Source: Cognatishimia sp. WU-CL00825
Lineage (GTDB): Bacteria > Pseudomonadota > Alphaproteobacteria > Rhodobacterales > Rhodobacteraceae
Direction: 5' to 3'
Assembly: GCF_040364665.1 (NCBI RefSeq)
Contig: NZ_BAABWX010000001.1
Span: 1,302,001 to 1,366,000, forward strand
DNA length: 64,000 bases
Of the stretch, positions 22,088 to 28,150 are shown piece after piece; position 1 is the first letter of the stretch, and every line of letters starts with the position of its first letter. The notes below the pieces were generated by a model that saw only the letters and a list, made by a program, of their open reading frames with translations, did not search any database and was not told the origin of the DNA. The translations under genes and the position numbers were made by a program.

Positions 22088-22109
22088 GCCAAAGCCCCTG
22101 TCGAATCCG

Positions 22110-22140
22110 AAAACGCCCGCATCGCGCGGGCGTTTTCTTT
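22110..22140 (+). terminator. Rho-independent terminator after the TerC gene
   Basis: AAAACGCCCGC and GCGGGCGTTTT form an 11-bp stem with loop ATCGC, followed by CTTT. Confidence 0.9.
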
Positions 22141-22254
22141 AGGTCTGGCACCAAAAATAGACCTCGGCGTGATACCGCTTTGGTTTTCTTCCCCCTAGCA
22201 ACACAGTTCAAAAGTTCCTAAGTTTCTAGCAGGGTTAGCGGGGATAGCTATTAC

Positions 22255-22338
22255 ATGTCTGGAACTGGACTACAAAAACTGGCGTTTATCGTTCTCGTCA
22301 TTTTGGTGTTTTACGTCTCTGTCGCAGGAGGCAACTAA
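22255..22338 (+). CDS. 27-residue single-pass membrane peptide
   Basis: ATG 22255 to TAA 22338 encodes MSGTGLQKL, a hydrophobic run of about 15 residues (AFIVLVILVFYVSVA) and GGN. The stop abuts the ATG of the XpaC gene (TAAATG), and its last codons contain GCAGGAGGC, the SD of that gene, so translation of the two is coupled. Codon use looks like that of its neighbours. The GGGGA upstream is an imperfectly spaced SD. It is too short for routine gene calling. Function unknown; it could be a small regulatory subunit of the membrane complex encoded downstream. Confidence 0.55.
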   Translation: MSGTGLQKLAFIVLVILVFYVSVAGGN

Positions 22339-23217
22339 ATGGCGCAGAATTTTGGTGGAAAATACAGCCCAAACGGCAAGTCAAAGGACACGCATTCAAA
22401 ACAATTTTTGAATGCCAAACGAACCCGCGTAGGCGGCCGTGTCAATTTGCTGTTTTTAGTCCCCCTGCCCTTGCTCTGGAAAGCTTTCACCTCGGAACCC
22501 ATTGTCATGGCGCAGTATTTGGCCAGCCTTGGAACGCTTTTATTAGGCGCTTGGTTGACACGCGAGGGATTGCTGGCCGAGGAGGCCTATCACGCGCGCA
22601 AAATCGCGCGCCGTCCTGCTATGCCGCGCAAGATCATCGGTGGCGTTTTAACCGGGCTTGGCTTGGGCATTGCCGGACTGGCGGGATTTGGCGTGATAGA
22701 TGCGCTTATCTTTGTGATTTTTGGAACCGGTCTGCATCTGCTTGCCTTTGGTCTTGATCCCCTAACCGACAAGGGTGCCGAGGGCATTGATACGTTCCAA
22801 ACCGATCGCGTGGCACGCGCCGTTGAAGAGGCCGAGAAACATCTGACCGCGATGCGTGACGCTATTTTGCGCGCAGGGGATCGCGATCTAGAGCGCCGGG
22901 TGGCGCAATTTGAAACCACCGCCAGAGATCTTTTTCGCACTATCGAAGACGATCCACGCGACCTGACTTCTGCGCGAAAATATCTGTCGGTCTATCTAAA
23001 GGGCGCGCGGGATGCGACTTCGAAATTCGCAGATGTCTATGCCCGCAACCAAAACTCTAAGGCACGCGCAGGATATGAAGAGTTGCTGAACGATCTGGAA
23101 CAAAACTTTGCAGCACGCACCCGCACGCTGCTGATCAACGACCATAGCGACCTGACGGTAGAAATTGACGTGTTGCGCGAACGCCTGCAACGCGAAGGCA
23201 TCAGAGACGATGTATAA
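22339..23217 (+). CDS. XpaC-like protein (5-bromo-4-chloroindolyl phosphate hydrolysis family)
   Basis: 292 residues. Basic N-terminus, then four hydrophobic segments at about 35-50, 57-75, 100-118 and 119-138, followed by a long cytosolic helical region (about 150-290) rich in Asp/Arg heptads. This is the XpaC/halogen-hydrolase-like family, whose B. subtilis member is paired with the TelA homologue YaaN. No hydrolase motif is apparent, and the name reflects an old phenotype. Here it directly precedes telA (25 bp) and is translationally coupled to the small ORF upstream. Confidence 0.85.
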   Translation: MAQNFGGKYSPNGKSKDTHSKQFLNAKRTRVGGRVNLLFLVPLPLLWKAFTSEPIVMAQYLASLGTLLLGAWLTREGLLAEEAYHARKIARRPAMPRKIIGGVLTGLGLGIAGLAGFGVIDALIFVIFGTGLHLLAFGLDPLTDKGAEGIDTFQTDRVARAVEEAEKHLTAMRDAILRAGDRDLERRVAQFETTARDLFRTIEDDPRDLTSARKYLSVYLKGARDATSKFADVYARNQNSKARAGYEELLNDLEQNFAARTRTLLINDHSDLTVEIDVLRERLQREGIRDDV

Positions 23218-23242
23218 CGCCATAAAACGCGAGGGAACTTAA

Positions 23243-24442
23243 ATGTCAGAGACAGTACGTCAAAAAGCCGAAGCCACTTTGGCAGAAGTCGAAGCAATCA
23301 ATGCCGTGGTATTGGCCGAGCCCGCCGAAAGCACAGCCATCGTGCCGCTGGCTGAAGCCGACGCCCCCACAAGCGATGAAATCACCAAACGAATGGCCGA
23401 ATTGGACATGGAGGACACAAATTCGATTGTGACTTTTGGATCCTCTGCCCAAGCGGAATTGCAAGAAATCAGCCAGTCGATGCTGCAGGGCGTGCGCAAC
23501 AAAGACGTTGGCCCAGCCGGCGATAGCCTGCGCAATATCGTCACGACGATACGCGGCTTTTCGATTTCCGAACTTGATGTGCGCCGCAAACGCAGTTTCT
23601 GGGAAAAGATATTGGGAAAAGCGGCACCGTTTGCCAAATTCACAGCACGGTTTGAACAAGTGCAGGGGCAAATTGATAAGATCACTGACAGCTTGCTGGA
23701 CCACGAACACACGTTGATGAAAGACATCAAATCTTTGGATTTACTGTATGATAAAACACTTACGTTTTATGATGAATTGGCGCTGTATATCGCTGCGGGT
23801 GAAGCCAAAATAGCAGAGCTTGACGCCAAAGACATTCCTGCAAAGGAAGCCGAGGTCCAAGCCGCAGAAGAAAAAGATCAAGTAATGAAGGCGCAGGAGC
23901 TGCGTGATTTGCGTGCAGCGCGCGACGATCTGGAACGCCGGGTGCATGATCTGAAACTGACCCGTCAGGTGACGATGCAGTCCCTGCCCTCTATCCGTCT
24001 GGTTCAAGAAAACGACAAATCGCTGGTCACCAAGATCAATTCAACTTTGGTTAACACCGTGCCTCTTTGGGAAACGCAATTGGCCCAGGCTGTCACAATC
24101 CAGCGCAGCGCAGAAGCCGCCGCAGCAGTGCGCGATGCCAATGATCTGACCAATGAATTGCTGACGTCCAACGCCAAAAATCTGCGCGACAGCAACAAAG
24201 TGATCCGCGAAGAAATGGAACGTGGTGTCTTTGACATTGAGGCCGTCAAGCAGGCCAACGCAGATCTGATTGGAACCATCGAAGAAAGCCTGCAAATCGC
24301 CGACGAAGGCAAAGCGCGCCGTGCCGCTGCAGAGGTTGATTTAAAATCAATGGAAGCAGAACTGCGCGATACGCTGGCTTCTGCCAAAGCCAAAGCGACC
24401 GGGCTTGGTGAAACTATCGCGACTTCTGCTGGCTCTGAATAA
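23243..24442 (+). CDS. telA: TelA/KlaA-family toxic-anion-resistance protein
   Basis: 399 residues, soluble and mostly coiled coil. Features include ISELDVRRKRSFWEKILGKAAPFAKFTARFEQVQGQIDKITDSLLDHEHTLMKDIKSLD-type sequence (about 113-170), which is the TelA core, and the C-terminal LIGTIEESLQIADEGKARRAAAE. Plasmid TelA contributes to tellurite and colicin resistance; chromosomal members are linked to cell-envelope stress, with an uncertain mechanism. SD GAGGGAAC lies upstream. The stop TAA is immediately followed by the ATG of the DUF2927 gene. Confidence 0.92.
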   Translation: MSETVRQKAEATLAEVEAINAVVLAEPAESTAIVPLAEADAPTSDEITKRMAELDMEDTNSIVTFGSSAQAELQEISQSMLQGVRNKDVGPAGDSLRNIVTTIRGFSISELDVRRKRSFWEKILGKAAPFAKFTARFEQVQGQIDKITDSLLDHEHTLMKDIKSLDLLYDKTLTFYDELALYIAAGEAKIAELDAKDIPAKEAEVQAAEEKDQVMKAQELRDLRAARDDLERRVHDLKLTRQVTMQSLPSIRLVQENDKSLVTKINSTLVNTVPLWETQLAQAVTIQRSAEAAAAVRDANDLTNELLTSNAKNLRDSNKVIREEMERGVFDIEAVKQANADLIGTIEESLQIADEGKARRAAAEVDLKSMEAELRDTLASAKAKATGLGETIATSAGSE

Positions 24443-25372
24443 ATGGCATATCTCGGGGCTCGTTTAACTGGTTTGGCATTTTGTGCGCTTGCGGCGTGCG
24501 ATTTGGCTGCGCCCGTTGCACCGGCCCCGACACCTGCATCCTTGCCGTTGCCTGCCGCGCCAAGCGCCGCTAGTGAATCGGTGCGGACATATTATAAAAA
24601 TGTTCAAAATGACCTTTTGGTTCAGGGCCTTATGCGCGTTGACGGCGGTGGCCCAGACACGCCATATTCCGCAGATAATCTGGCGCGAAACTTCGAAAAA
24701 ATCGCGTTCTATGATGAGCATAGTATCGGAACCAGCCTTCAGAGAAGCACCGGAGAGGCCCGACTTTTGGCACGTTGGGACAAGCCCGTGCGTATAGGTG
24801 TTGAATTTGGCCCCAGCGTCGATGCGGCGCAACGCGCCAAGGACAAAGCCTTTGTCGCCAAATTCGCAGACCGGTTGGGACGCGTCACCGGCCACCCGGT
24901 GACGACTGCAAAAACCCGTATAAACTTCAACGTTCTTGTGGTCGGCGAAGACGACAGAACCGCTATGGCGCAACGGTTTTCGAACCTTTTGCCCAGCCTT
25001 TCAAACGCCCATCGGACCTTACTGCAGAACTTGCCACGTGACATGCATTGCTTGGTGATCGTAAGCCATGCGGATTCTGACGAGCCCAAAATCATGTCCG
25101 GCGTCGCCATCGTGCGCGCCGAACATCCAGAGCTATTGCGTCAGGCTTGTTTTCATGAAGAAATCTCGCAGGGCCTCGGTTTGGTGAACGATAGCCCATT
25201 GGCGCGCCCGTCGATTTTCAATGACGACGACGAATTTGCCTATCTGACAAGCCACGACCAGGCTCTGCTAAATATGCTATATGACCCTCGGCTTGCCATC
25301 GGCATGACTGCTGATCAAGCACGCCCCATCATTCGTATTCTTGCCCGCGAACGCATGGGCCAAGATCTATGA
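24443..25372 (+). CDS. DUF2927 lipoprotein
   Basis: 309 residues. Lipobox LAAC (Cys19) with Asp at +2, the residue that retains lipoproteins in the inner membrane of enterobacteria, then a Pro/Ala-rich linker to about 50. The DUF2927 domain fills the rest, with CFHEEISQGLGLVND near residue 236 (H238, E239) and DDEFAYLTSHDQALLNMLYDPRL following. The HExxxQ-LG pattern recalls metallopeptidase active-site helices but lacks the second His of HExxH, so activity is uncertain. Starts directly at the telA stop (TAAATG), so the two are coupled. Confidence 0.82.
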   Translation: MAYLGARLTGLAFCALAACDLAAPVAPAPTPASLPLPAAPSAASESVRTYYKNVQNDLLVQGLMRVDGGGPDTPYSADNLARNFEKIAFYDEHSIGTSLQRSTGEARLLARWDKPVRIGVEFGPSVDAAQRAKDKAFVAKFADRLGRVTGHPVTTAKTRINFNVLVVGEDDRTAMAQRFSNLLPSLSNAHRTLLQNLPRDMHCLVIVSHADSDEPKIMSGVAIVRAEHPELLRQACFHEEISQGLGLVNDSPLARPSIFNDDDEFAYLTSHDQALLNMLYDPRLAIGMTADQARPIIRILARERMGQDL

Positions 25373-25389
25373 CCAATTAGGAGAAACCC

Positions 25390-26508
25390 ATGGGTATTTT
25401 CGACTTCCTCACCGGCGAATTCATTGATGTTATTCATTGGGTCGACGACACACGCGACACGATGGTTTGGCGATTTGAACGCGAGGGCCACGAGATCAAA
25501 TATGGGGCCAAGCTGACGGTGCGCGAAGGCCAGGCAGCCGTGTTTGTACACGAAGGTCAGCTGGCAGATGTGTTCACGCCTGGGCTTTACATGCTTGAAA
25601 CCAACAACATGCCCATCATGACAACGCTAAATCATTGGGATCACGGCTTTAAAAGCCCCTTTAAATCAGAAATTTACTTTGTAAACACCACCCGTTTCAA
25701 CGATTTGAAATGGGGCACCAAAAACCCGATTATGTGCCGCGACCCAGAATTCGGCCCCGTGCGATTAAGGGCCTATGGCACCTATTCAGTCCGTGTGAAT
25801 GATGCGGCGCGTTTCTTGACTGAAATCGTTGGCACAGATGGTGAGTTCACCATGGACGAGATCAGCTTTCAAATCCGTAACATCATCGTACAAGAGTTTT
25901 CGCGCGCGATTGCAAAGTCGGGTATTCCAGTTCTGGACATGGCGGCCAATACCGCTGACGTTGGTAAGTTGGTGGCCCAGGCCATCGAACCGGTGATCAG
26001 CCAATATGGCCTGTCTATCCCTGAATTATACATTGAAAACATATCCTTACCGCCTGCCGTCGAGACCGCATTGGACGCTCGTACCTCGCGTGGCATCGCC
26101 GGAAATTTGGACGCCCATATGAAATGGAAAGCAGCCGAAGCCATGGGCAATGAGGGTGCTGCAGGGAACGCAATGGGCACAGGCCTGGGTGCGGGGATGG
26201 GCATGGCGATGGCCGGAAATTTGATGCAACAGCAAAACAGCGGACCTTGGGGGGCGGCCCCTCAGTCGACCGCCGTCGCGGCCCCTCCACCCCCGCCCGT
26301 CGAGCATGTCTGGCATATTGCAGAAGGCGGTAAAACCACAGGCCCCTTTTCCAAAGCCAAACTTGGACGCATGGCCGCTGACGGCAAACTGACCCGTGAA
26401 ACCTATGTTTGGACTGCGGGCCAAGACGGTTGGAAAGCCGCCCAAGATGTTACTGAACTGGCGCAGCTGTTCACCACCATGCCTCCCCCGCCGCCTCCTG
26501 GCGCATAA
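25390..26508 (+). CDS. SPFH-domain protein with C-terminal GYF_2 domain
   Basis: 372 residues. SPFH (stomatin/prohibitin/flotillin) domain of the virion-core-protein subgroup at about 20-240, a Gly/Met/Ala-rich segment at 255-280, a run of prolines at 299-303, and a GYF_2 (DUF4339) domain at about 306-361 (WHIAEGGKTTGPFSKAKL, TYVWTAGQDGWK), ending in polyproline. The same family includes B. subtilis YdjI. GYF domains bind proline-rich peptides, so the tail may self-bind or bind a partner. SD AGGAGAAA at 25379-25386. Confidence 0.86.
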   Translation: MGIFDFLTGEFIDVIHWVDDTRDTMVWRFEREGHEIKYGAKLTVREGQAAVFVHEGQLADVFTPGLYMLETNNMPIMTTLNHWDHGFKSPFKSEIYFVNTTRFNDLKWGTKNPIMCRDPEFGPVRLRAYGTYSVRVNDAARFLTEIVGTDGEFTMDEISFQIRNIIVQEFSRAIAKSGIPVLDMAANTADVGKLVAQAIEPVISQYGLSIPELYIENISLPPAVETALDARTSRGIAGNLDAHMKWKAAEAMGNEGAAGNAMGTGLGAGMGMAMAGNLMQQQNSGPWGAAPQSTAVAAPPPPPVEHVWHIAEGGKTTGPFSKAKLGRMAADGKLTRETYVWTAGQDGWKAAQDVTELAQLFTTMPPPPPPGA

Positions 26509-26554
26509 GAAACATCGGCTAAACCATTGTTCTTGATCATCTAAGTAGACCGAC

Positions 26555-27679
26555 ATGACAGAATTGCCACCGATTCCACCACTGCCAACTAAACCAGAAA
26601 ATGAGCACAGGTTTCCCTGTGACCAATGCGGTGCTGACTATCGCTTTGCACCAGAGGCCGGTGAATTACGCTGTGACCATTGTGGCCACCACGAAGCAAT
26701 TGAAGACGTCGGTCCTTGGAAAGGCTCAATCAAAGAGTTGGATTTTGACCGCGCGTTGCAGAACCAATTGCCCGCGCAGGAGATCGAGGTAACCCGTGTT
26801 TCAACTTGCCCAAATTGTGCCGCTCAGGTGGAATTTGACGCGGTAGATCACGCCACAGATTGTCCATTTTGCGCGACGCCGGTTGTTGCAGACACCGGCA
26901 AACACCGCCATATCAAACCGCGTGGCGTGCTGCCTTTTGCGCTGGATGAGCGCGCAGCCCATGGGGCGATGGGCCAGTGGTTGGGGAAATTATGGTTTGC
27001 ACCCAACGGCTTGCAAGAATACGCCCGAAAAGGCCGTAAGATGAACGGCATCTATGTGCCCTATTGGACGTTTGATGCCGACACCAAGTCCAGCTATCAA
27101 GGTGAGCGTGGCACGGTGTATTATGAAAACCGCACCGTCACGATTAGCGGAAAACAACAAACAAAACGTGTTGCCAAAGTACGCTGGCGTCCGAAATCAG
27201 GGCGTGTGGCACGATTTTTTGATGATGTCTTGGTGCTTGCGTCCAAAAGTTTGCCCAAACGTTTTACAGATGCTCTTGAGCCATGGGATTTGTCGGCACT
27301 GGAGCCTTATCGCCCTGAATTCCTTGCAGGATTTCGCGCTGAAGGCTATGCAGTCGAGCTGGAAGAGGGCTTTGTAGAAGCCCGCCAGCATATGGATCGC
27401 GTGATCCTGCGGGATGTCAAATTTGATATTGGCGGTGACCGTCAAAGAGTTCATGATATCAACACGTTGGTATCTGATGTGACTTTTAAACACGTGCTTT
27501 TACCGGTTTGGATGGCAGCCTATAAATACCGGGGAAATACCTATCGATTTGTAGTGAATGGCCGCACAGGCCGGGTGCAGGGCGAACGGCCATGGTCCGC
27601 TTGGAAAATCGCCATAGCCGTGATAGCTGGGGCCATCGTTGCGGGTGGAATTGGTTATTTTATCGCAATGAATCAATAA
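26555..27679 (+). CDS. Double-zinc-ribbon protein with C-terminal membrane anchor (YdjG-like)
   Basis: 374 residues. Two zinc ribbons: C22/C25/C40/C43 (CDQCG to CDHCG) and C85/C88/C103/C106 (CPNCA to CPFCA). A long conserved middle part contains YVPYWTFDADT, a PVWMAAYKYRG segment and one membrane helix at about 350-372. Relatives are often annotated as primosomal protein N' because of the ribbon, but there is no helicase motif, so that name should be rejected. The B. subtilis analogue is likely YdjG, which with YdjI recruits PspA-type proteins to the membrane. Confidence 0.83.
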   Translation: MTELPPIPPLPTKPENEHRFPCDQCGADYRFAPEAGELRCDHCGHHEAIEDVGPWKGSIKELDFDRALQNQLPAQEIEVTRVSTCPNCAAQVEFDAVDHATDCPFCATPVVADTGKHRHIKPRGVLPFALDERAAHGAMGQWLGKLWFAPNGLQEYARKGRKMNGIYVPYWTFDADTKSSYQGERGTVYYENRTVTISGKQQTKRVAKVRWRPKSGRVARFFDDVLVLASKSLPKRFTDALEPWDLSALEPYRPEFLAGFRAEGYAVELEEGFVEARQHMDRVILRDVKFDIGGDRQRVHDINTLVSDVTFKHVLLPVWMAAYKYRGNTYRFVVNGRTGRVQGERPWSAWKIAIAVIAGAIVAGGIGYFIAMNQ

Positions 27680-27700
27680 GATAGAAAAAGGCGCACAGAA

Positions 27701-28150
27701 ATGCGAGCAGTGATTCAGCGGGTTTCCCAAGCCGAGGTGCGGGTGGATGATGTGGTTACCGGAGAGATCACACAGGGTTTGTTGATACTGATCTGTGCCA
27801 TGAAAGGTGACTCTGAAGCAGACGCCGATAAATTAGCCAGAAAAATCAGCAAGATTCGCATTTTCCAAGACGAAAACGGCAAAATGAATAAGTCCGTTCT
27901 TGATATCGGTGGCAGCGCCTTGGTGGTCAGCCAATTCACATTGGCCGCAGATACGCGCAGCGGAAATAGACCTGGCTTTTCAACAGCTTGCGGTGCAGAT
28001 GACGGAAATATGTTCTATGAGTATTTCACCAAATCGATTGCAGAAACCGGCGTTCCCGTTGAAAAAGGCATATTTGGCGCAGATATGAAAGTTTCGTTAA
28101 TCAACGATGGGCCGGTGACCATTTGGCTCGACACGGATCAATGGAAATAG
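27701..28150 (+). CDS. dtd: D-aminoacyl-tRNA deacylase
   Basis: 149 residues. Family motifs: [15 protein letters not shown] at the N-terminus, SQFTLAAD (about 81-88, catalytic SQxT) and [11 protein letters not shown] at the C-terminus (cis Gly-Pro site). It hydrolyses D-aminoacyl-tRNAs and Gly-tRNA(Ala). It follows the zinc-ribbon gene by 21 bp and so forms the end of the TelA operon. Confidence 0.95.

Follow-up and report, generated by a model that had tools for sequence, protein, structure and literature searches.

The window analysed here is a stretch of 64,000 nt from the marine bacterium Cognatishimia sp. WU-CL00825 (contig NZ_BAABWX010000001.1, positions 1,302,001 to 1,366,000), and all coordinates are relative to it. 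It contains a run of seven co-directional genes (Table 1), which the earlier note had described together with two TAAATG junctions; all seven reading frames and both junctions (22338/22339 and 24442/24443) are indeed present. The remaining intergenic gaps are 25, 17, 46 and 21 nt. None of the six proteins searched for anti-phage defence, TerC and the five core proteins, matches a PADLOC model at an E-value of 0.01.

Table 1. Features of the operon and its immediate surroundings
Feature	Coordinates	Strand	Remarks
Hairpin 3' of TerC	22109-22137	+	-22.7 kcal/mol, z -4.39
Promoter-like element	22185-22226	+	CTTCCCCCTAGCAA-N16-CCTARRTTTC type; 28 nt upstream of peptide start
Microprotein, 27 aa	22255-22338	+	one hydrophobic segment; stop abuts XpaC start (TAAATG)
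XpaC	22339-23217	+	PF10112 2.4e-26; membrane segments and a further domain
TelA	23243-24442	+	PF05816 3.8e-107; predicted long-helix protein without membrane segment
DUF2927 lipoprotein	24443-25372	+	PF11150 1.9e-57; lipobox Cys19, Asp at +2
SPFH (Band_7_1) protein	25390-26508	+	PF13421 1.4e-99; C-terminal GYF_2 (PF14237) 5.3e-21 and polyproline tail PPPPPPGA
Double zinc-ribbon protein	26555-27679	+	C-terminal membrane helix 348-373; invariant cysteines; no Pfam match over cut-off
dtd, D-aminoacyl-tRNA deacylase	27701-28150	+	PF02580 1.3e-56, TIGR00256; co-directional neighbour outside the core

Among 121 sampled Rhodobacterales genomes, TelA is matched in 119 and the SPFH protein over the cut-off in 117. 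The SPFH gene lies downstream of TelA on the same strand, with at most 3.1 kb between the domain matches, in 115 of these 117 genomes and away from TelA in the other two; the zinc-ribbon gene comes after SPFH in 103/117. The linkage on which the earlier note had staked its proposal is therefore the rule. In six genomes of one genus (g8), SPFH stays with TelA and the zinc-ribbon gene is found elsewhere. The five core genes are complete in 74 of 80 named loci; for the other six, the contigs stop 1.0-3.5 kb beyond TelA. Because the same order recurs across 57 genera, it reflects more than chance.

Four further alphaproteobacterial families (loci L128-L131) carry a four-gene version of the core, in which the DUF2927 gene was not found. 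All six strong-SPFH genomes in the class sample outside the family also have TelA, adjacent in four; the TelA-SPFH co-occurrence has a P value of 1.7e-8, based on 12 strong TelA genomes among 187 and with genomes treated as independent. In the phylum sample outside the family, none of the five SPFH genomes with TelA shows the linkage. One locus from the phylum outside the class (L156) has a divergent SPFH-like GYF protein directly after XpaC-TelA, with a Band_7_1 score under and a GYF_2 score over the cut-off. Many genomes carry the SPFH-zinc-ribbon pair without TelA, and XpaC-TelA without SPFH also exists (eg, L149). Since each pair occurs without the other, each can work alone.

TerC, encoded directly upstream here, is found upstream in only 11/60 loci of Rhodobacterales and in 16/80 named loci. 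The strong hairpin between TerC and the operon is probably the TerC terminator, so that TerC is likely a separate unit. The dtd gene is near 40 of the 60 loci and co-directional in 39 of these, often with intervening genes that are PfkB-like or nitroreductase-like (names by resemblance), and is best regarded as a neighbour. Neither gene can be kept as a member of the module, as had been proposed for both. A hydrophobic ORF of 20-42 aa ends at the start of the XpaC match in 52/57 XpaC loci, while the same search before other genes yields 0/60, 0/55, 0/56, 2/50, 2/39 and 0/47. The differences at codon positions 1/2/3 of the microprotein are 558/279/863 over 62 pairs. The 27-residue peptide is a conserved part of the locus, a point added by the present analysis.

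TTCCCCC occurs in 16/53 upstream regions, compared with a shuffle maximum of 7 for any 7-mer. An exact TTCCCCCTAG is present in 13/58 regions, and roughly half of the regions fit the profile poorly. In 11 of 14 chosen genomes, the pattern TTCCCCCTAG-N17..19-CCTA has exactly one match, which lies at this operon. The CCCCCTAG element 5' of the operon is promoter-like and may act as a promoter in that part of the family in which it is present.

XpaC displays hydrophobic segments at residues 55-73 and 99-142 by hydropathy. Its PF10112 match lies upstream of TelA (PF05816) in 57 of 60 TelA loci, and directly precedes it here. The TelA model consists of helices 129-207, 210-326 and 332-385 (mean pLDDT 68.8), and its structural match lists contain mostly generic long-helix proteins. 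TelAs from SPFH-linked loci fall into one clade with 100/100 support, in a tree that carries long-branch warnings; the clade also includes rows without linked SPFH (L149, L110, L121 and L124) and one (L164) whose contig is too short to tell. The DUF2927 gene is present in 55/60 loci of Rhodobacterales, and its product has conserved Cys203, Cys236 and HEExxQ (238-243). A lipobox is found in 50 of 56 homologues. The +2 rule governs inner-membrane retention of lipoproteins, and Asp or Glu occupies this position in 22 of the 50 lipoboxes; the inner-membrane location assumed in the earlier note is thus not a conserved trait.

A membrane segment is absent from the SPFH protein in 57/57 sequences. 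Its polyproline tail occurs together with the GYF domain among the homologues, which suggests that the two form a self-latch. In the zinc-ribbon protein, Cys22/25/40/43 and Cys85/88/103/106 are invariant in 33 aligned sequences, and a C-terminal membrane segment is found in 50/51. The structure model is poor (pLDDT 54). PF08271 is among the precomputed matches of some homologues, and the protein may be a YdjG homologue. The zinc-ribbon protein is present in exactly the 117 genomes with SPFH over the cut-off, and both are absent from the same 4/121, so that the two are kept or lost together. TelA is retained in two of these four genomes, where its best matches score lower than in any other genome of the set.

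We interpret the locus as a conserved alphaproteobacterial operon in which two widespread pairs, XpaC-TelA and SPFH(GYF)-zinc-ribbon, belong to one envelope-maintenance module, and place the probability of this reading at roughly 0.6. The role in envelope stress is suggested by analogy with distant Firmicute relatives, through the lowering of the Bacillus operons in a sigW mutant, the dependence of YdjI on membrane proteins and the nisin sensitivity of a Listeria telA insertion, all described below. Anchoring in the membrane would fall to XpaC, which has membrane segments, and to the zinc-ribbon protein with its C-terminal tail anchor. Lacking such a segment, the SPFH-GYF protein would be docked by the zinc-ribbon protein; it may polymerise, in which case its GYF domain would hold the polyproline tail of an adjacent subunit or that of a proline-rich partner. 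Soluble, long-helix TelA, held by XpaC, would join this patch beneath the inner membrane and help stabilise the membrane during envelope stress. Within the membrane, the microprotein may tune or stabilise XpaC; the DUF2927 lipoprotein could read or modify the periplasmic side. Such a module would work much as the Ydj proteins do in the Psp response of Bacillus, except that its complex would include XpaC-TelA and would not need PspA.

The earlier note's remark that no PspA is encoded nearby holds for the entire genome (3.62 Mb, 99% complete), in which PF04012 has no match; the same search is positive in 9/14 control genomes. PspA is also absent from 78 of the 117 genomes with both TelA and SPFH, the other 39 keeping it elsewhere. 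What stands of the proposed envelope module is accordingly a conserved XpaC-TelA/SPFH/zinc-ribbon operon, PspA-free here and in these 78 genomes. The further suggestion, that TelA functionally replaces PspA and, once recruited by the SPFH protein and the zinc-ribbon anchor, forms a PspA-like membrane coat, agrees with these absences, with the lack of PspA in 4/4 linked genomes from other families (including one of just 68% completeness), with its presence in 4/6 genomes that have both TelA and SPFH but unlinked, and with the predicted long helices of TelA. However, TelA has no detectable sequence-profile similarity to PspA (hhalign probability 0.4%), 39/117 genomes carry both, and 12 of 13 TelA-less SPFH genomes tested are likewise without PspA. 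The claim is not upheld, and we consider such a substitution improbable.

The linkage could also come from co-expression instead of one complex. The operon would then comprise two independent modules behind one promoter, co-regulated and separate, with XpaC-TelA providing cationic/oxyanion stress tolerance and SPFH-zinc-ribbon organising the membrane. Each pair is found alone elsewhere, part of the family has a single element ahead of the operon, and in Bacillus the counterparts are separate sigma-W operons, with pspA-ydjGHI, xpaC-yaaN and yceC-yceH all lowered in a sigW mutant according to PMC3498285. Independence does not readily explain an order and strand that are kept over 57 genera, the persistence of SPFH beside TelA after relocation of the zinc-ribbon gene (g8), or the finding that the most divergent TelAs belong to genomes that have lost SPFH and the zinc-ribbon protein; this arrangement is conceivable, though rather unlikely. 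A Ter-type tellurite/metal-stress locus, in which TelA, the TerC neighbour and the zinc ribbons handle metals or oxyanions, is suggested by the PF05816 family name and by TerC at this and some other loci, but TerC is usually missing, the hairpin follows it here, and the Pfam search returns no further Ter-type family among the operon proteins. This explanation appears very improbable.

TelA and XpaC are widespread, and the phenotypes that gave them their names leave the proteins unexplained. By tying them to an SPFH protein and its membrane anchor, the operon supplies a concrete partner set and opens their function to tests in roseobacters, which are easy to grow. Should the proteins act together, bacteria possess an SPFH-based membrane-protection scaffold independent of PspA. 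A more specific version, which we offer tentatively and regard as unlikely in its full form, is a second, PspA-independent membrane-repair scaffold: XpaC-bound TelA rods on a self-latching SPFH-GYF polymer with a tail-anchored zinc-ribbon receptor. The microprotein would set this scaffold, and some members of the family would have it under the control of an element that is found in its exact form only at this operon. If true, the function of TelA would be that of the working coat of the scaffold. The microprotein and the GYF-polyproline tail are two specific parts that can be tested cheaply.

Several known systems share components with this operon. Myxococcus GltJ/AgmX combines a zinc ribbon with a GYF domain and gives weak sequence matches to both, but is a single motility protein, and SPFH, TelA and XpaC are not known to take part in its function. 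Loci of the SPFH-DUF4178-DUF350-polyamine aminopropyltransferase type (eg, in Novosphingobium) place SPFH beside a partner gene; they differ in the partner (DUF4178), in the SPFH C-terminus, which is SHOCT-like, and in having no TelA. At one locus (L146), the DUF4178-type partner shows weak zinc-ribbon matches. Plasmid records from Vibrio coralliilyticus and Tsukamurella contain the SPFH(GYF)-zinc-ribbon bicistron in the same order and with a proline tail, but the annotation of the surrounding 4-5 kb includes neither XpaC nor TelA. Conversely, the XpaC-YaaN/TelA pair is known from Bacillus (xpaC-yaaN) and Listeria (lmo1966-1967); in a Bacillus plasmid record the two genes are adjacent and in the same order, but followed by yaaO, tmk, darA and yaaR rather than SPFH or zinc-ribbon genes. 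For Listeria, PMC12791056 cites a telA insertion that raises nisin sensitivity 4-fold.

The parallel drawn in the earlier note with YdjI/YdjG finds support in the literature (PMC8581546, PMC9239133, PMC11237479). Unlike B. subtilis pspA-ydjG-ydjH-ydjI, the present operon has no PspA and instead encodes XpaC, TelA, the DUF2927 lipoprotein and the microprotein; no Pfam match to the TPM domain of YdjH is found among its proteins at an E-value of 0.1. The SPFH C-terminus, GYF and polyproline here, is described as a zinc ribbon in the Firmicute Band-7 protein, which PMC11237479 names YdjL. Both systems have a YdjI-type SPFH protein without a membrane segment and, in the same operon, a zinc-ribbon membrane protein, and in Bacillus this is a stress operon. 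YdjG has a TFIIB-type ribbon (PMC9239133), or two ribbons according to PMC11237479, and YdjI depends on the membrane proteins YdjG/H and recruits PspA (PMC8581546).

The seven genes (27-residue peptide, XpaC, TelA, DUF2927 lipoprotein, SPFH-GYF, zinc-ribbon and dtd) are all co-directional and closely spaced, with TAAATG at two junctions, and the layout described in the earlier note, coordinates included, is present in the sequence. Pfam assigns XpaC to PF10112, TelA to PF05816, DUF2927 to PF11150 and SPFH to Band_7_1 plus GYF_2, and also names dtd; the zinc-ribbon protein matches no Pfam family above cut-off. Leaving aside the window's own proteins, the nearest database entries belong to Cognatishimia (TelA 96% and zinc-ribbon 91% identical), which suggests a roseobacter source in or close to that genus. 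The predicted structure of TelA consists of three very long helices (model pLDDT 68.8).

Coordinates of features in the window
Feature	Position	Description	Extent
Upstream element, CCCCCTAG-type	22185-22226	recurrent 7-mers before peptide	part of family
27-residue peptide	22255-22338	hydrophobic ORF before XpaC	52/57 loci (among L067-L126)
DUF2927	24443-25372	HEExxQ (238-243), Cys203, Cys236	conserved in family
SPFH-GYF	25390-26508	proline tail directly after GYF	
Seven genes	22255-28150	plus strand	

For Rhodobacterales, a fixed set of 121 genomes from 59 genera was evaluated. TelA matches in 119 genomes and SPFH scores above its cut-off in 117, and the 117 genomes matching the zinc-ribbon profile are exactly the same ones. 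In 115/117, SPFH is a co-directional downstream neighbour of TelA, the domain matches being no more than 3.1 kb apart; the two exceptions have separate contigs and a 13.6 kb interval, respectively. A zinc-ribbon gene comes after SPFH at a distance of up to 6 kb in 103/117. Among the other 14, six have SPFH and zinc-ribbon on separate contigs, one or both of them near a contig end, probably because of assembly breaks; another six belong to a single genus (g8) with the zinc-ribbon gene located elsewhere, and in the last two (g19) it lies upstream, at about 50 kb and 8 kb. These frequencies bear out the linkage of SPFH and zinc-ribbon to TelA.

Searched by tblastn, 60 TelA loci (57 genera plus three extras chosen for unusual gene spacing or contig placement, some shortened by contig ends) gave these counts: XpaC 57, SPFH 56, DUF2927 55, zinc-ribbon 50, dtd 40 and TerC 11; 47 also have an rRNA pseudouridine synthase gene upstream. 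All five core genes are held by 74 of 80 named loci (the best 80 of 569 confirmed candidates, all close relatives, whose genomes overlap with the other locus set); in the other six the contig stops 1.0-3.5 kb after TelA. In two genomes, G081 (L110) and G085 (L112), SPFH and zinc-ribbon are unmatched and the TelAs have the two lowest scores in the 121-genome set, as though TelA degenerates when these partners are absent. In several genera (L068, L085 and L091), cytochrome b561-like genes separate SPFH from zinc-ribbon; that of L085 is backed by Pfam PF01292, and the other two are named by resemblance.

By hydropathy, none of 57 SPFH proteins has a membrane segment, and 50 of 51 zinc-ribbon proteins have one at the C-terminus; eight cysteines of the zinc-ribbon protein are invariant (33 aligned sequences). 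A recognisable lipobox is present in 50 of 56 DUF2927 proteins, the remaining six perhaps having misplaced starts. The HEExxQ of this family resembles, yet is not, the zincin HExxH, and is possibly an altered zinc-protease motif. SPFH proteins of the order end in GYF followed by a tail such as PPPPPPGA. PPG or PPPP falls within the last 25 residues in 51 of 57, and GYF plus PPP in the last 30 residues are found in 56 of 57, the lone exception seemingly cut by a contig end, and in 76 of 79 ORFs from the named loci. Other loci supplied 22 more SPFH ORFs, of which 10 have both GYF and tail and 10 have neither; L156 has GYF without the tail, and a split-gene piece at L138 has prolines without GYF. 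GYF-less proteins end otherwise, some by eye SHOCT-like or helix-turn-helix-like, and one record is annotated SPFH plus helix-turn-helix. Because proline-rich peptides are ligands of GYF domains, a natural hypothesis is that the GYF of one SPFH subunit would latch head-to-tail onto another.

The peptide upstream of XpaC is, judged from sequence, a conserved microprotein. A search for hydrophobic ORFs of 20-42 residues ending near the XpaC match start recovered it at the frequency tabulated, and tblastn with the peptide of the window gives a match at L071, one of the five misses. Equivalent control searches returned 0/60 before TelA, 0/55 before DUF2927, 0/56 before SPFH, 0/47 before the pseudouridine synthase, 2/50 before zinc-ribbon and 2/39 before dtd, and 20 single-base shuffles gave no such ORF. 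With a cruder anchor, the named set yields 64/79. Nucleotide differences at codon positions 1/2/3 number 558/279/863 (62 equal-length pairs sharing 60% identity or more), the pattern expected of a translated gene. The ORF mostly overlaps or abuts XpaC and encodes a single hydrophobic segment with no Pfam match (rough consensus M-S-x-x-x-L-Q-K-x-A-[FY]-x-x-L-x-x-L-x-x-x-V-x-x-G-G). Two distant lineages, L149 and L156, carry 27-residue hydrophobic peptides of unrelated sequence just before XpaC.

In the upstream regions, TTCCCCC occurs in 16 of 53 (shuffle maximum 7 for any 7-mer), with a second block, CCTA, about 18 nt beyond 7-mers of this type. The element is common to part of the family only, because exact TTCCCCCTAG is present in just 13 of 58 regions and about half fit the profile poorly. 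The pattern TTCCCCCTAG-N17..19-CCTA was run against 14 genomes picked for a good operon copy, a choice that makes presence circular and leaves uniqueness per genome unaffected. It occurs once each in 11, about 1.2 kb before TelA by coordinates, and is absent from three; used as a control, the reversed pattern was seen twice overall. The element looks operon-specific where it occurs, since each of the 11 has a single copy, before this operon. We infer a promoter or operator.

At the level of the class, a sample of 190 genomes includes 17 with TelA over cut-off and nine with strong SPFH (E below 1e-70). TelA is present in all six strong-SPFH genomes outside Rhodobacteraceae, and in four of them 143-503 bp separate the domain matches; these four loci (L128-L131) read XpaC-TelA-SPFH-zinc-ribbon, with no DUF2927 match. 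The phylum sample (299 genomes) has 21 strong-SPFH genomes outside the family, five with TelA, and none of the five shows linkage (one has 129 kb between the genes, four have them on separate contigs). Across 20 fetched SPFH loci, an adjoining zinc-ribbon match is strong in 12, weak in three (one is DUF4178) and missing in five, in one of which the contig stops 0.3 kb past SPFH. Vibrio and an actinobacterium also carry SPFH-GYF plus zinc-ribbon. These occurrences indicate that two widespread gene pairs have been fused into the operon, a compact unit observed in some Alphaproteobacteria. On a Vibrio coralliilyticus plasmid (L260, 1-4114), the SPFH-GYF/zinc-ribbon pair adjoins oppositely oriented TIR-domain and TRAFs-binding-domain genes. 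At L156, from outside the class, XpaC-TelA is directly followed by a divergent SPFH-like protein (Band_7_1 0.0027, under cut-off; GYF_2 8.8e-10), which hints independently at a connection between TelA and SPFH-GYF. In a 30-sequence TelA tree (15/27 inner branches open, several rows long), a single 100/100 clade of 21 rows contains the linked TelAs, along with rows without linked SPFH.

The absence of PspA noted near the operon extends to the whole source genome, where a profile search gave no PF04012 match. Within the order set, PF04012 is above cut-off in 39/121 genomes, all 39 also with TelA and SPFH, and has no match in 78 of the 117 carrying both. Grouped by TelA/SPFH state, 26 further genomes have PspA in 0/4 with a linked operon outside the family (one only 68% complete), 4/6 with both genes unlinked, 1/13 with SPFH and no TelA (one more matches weakly; one genus supplies five of the 13, which together cover all but three such genomes) and 0/3 others. 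The module is PspA-free in most sampled hosts, and carriers of this SPFH type commonly lack PspA in general. The suggestion that TelA takes the place of PspA therefore finds no support: SPFH genomes without TelA mostly lack PspA too. TelA and PspA profiles gave no alignment (PspA profile of four sequences).

No description of TelA, XpaC and SPFH together was found in the literature searched; a subscription-journal study reportedly analysed gene neighbourhoods of Ter and TelA. The word TelA was not found in the passages searched of a PSP survey (PMC11237479). As a genome organisation, the envelope module proposed earlier is well supported; its mechanism is still conjectural. The Listeria XpaC and TelA genes are slightly up under the bacteriocin garvicin KS (log2 0.63 and 0.61; PMC12791056), and a telA insertion is more nisin-sensitive (as cited in PMC12791056). 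Bacillus PspA needs YdjI to reach the membrane, and YdjI, itself likely soluble, is brought there by YdjG/H (PMC8581546); in a sigW mutant, pspA-ydjGHI, xpaC-yaaN and yceC-yceH are all lowered (PMC3498285). By analogy, the simplest interpretation is that these sigma-W-type envelope functions would have been brought together by the alphaproteobacterial operon in one transcription unit, and probably joined in one complex as well.
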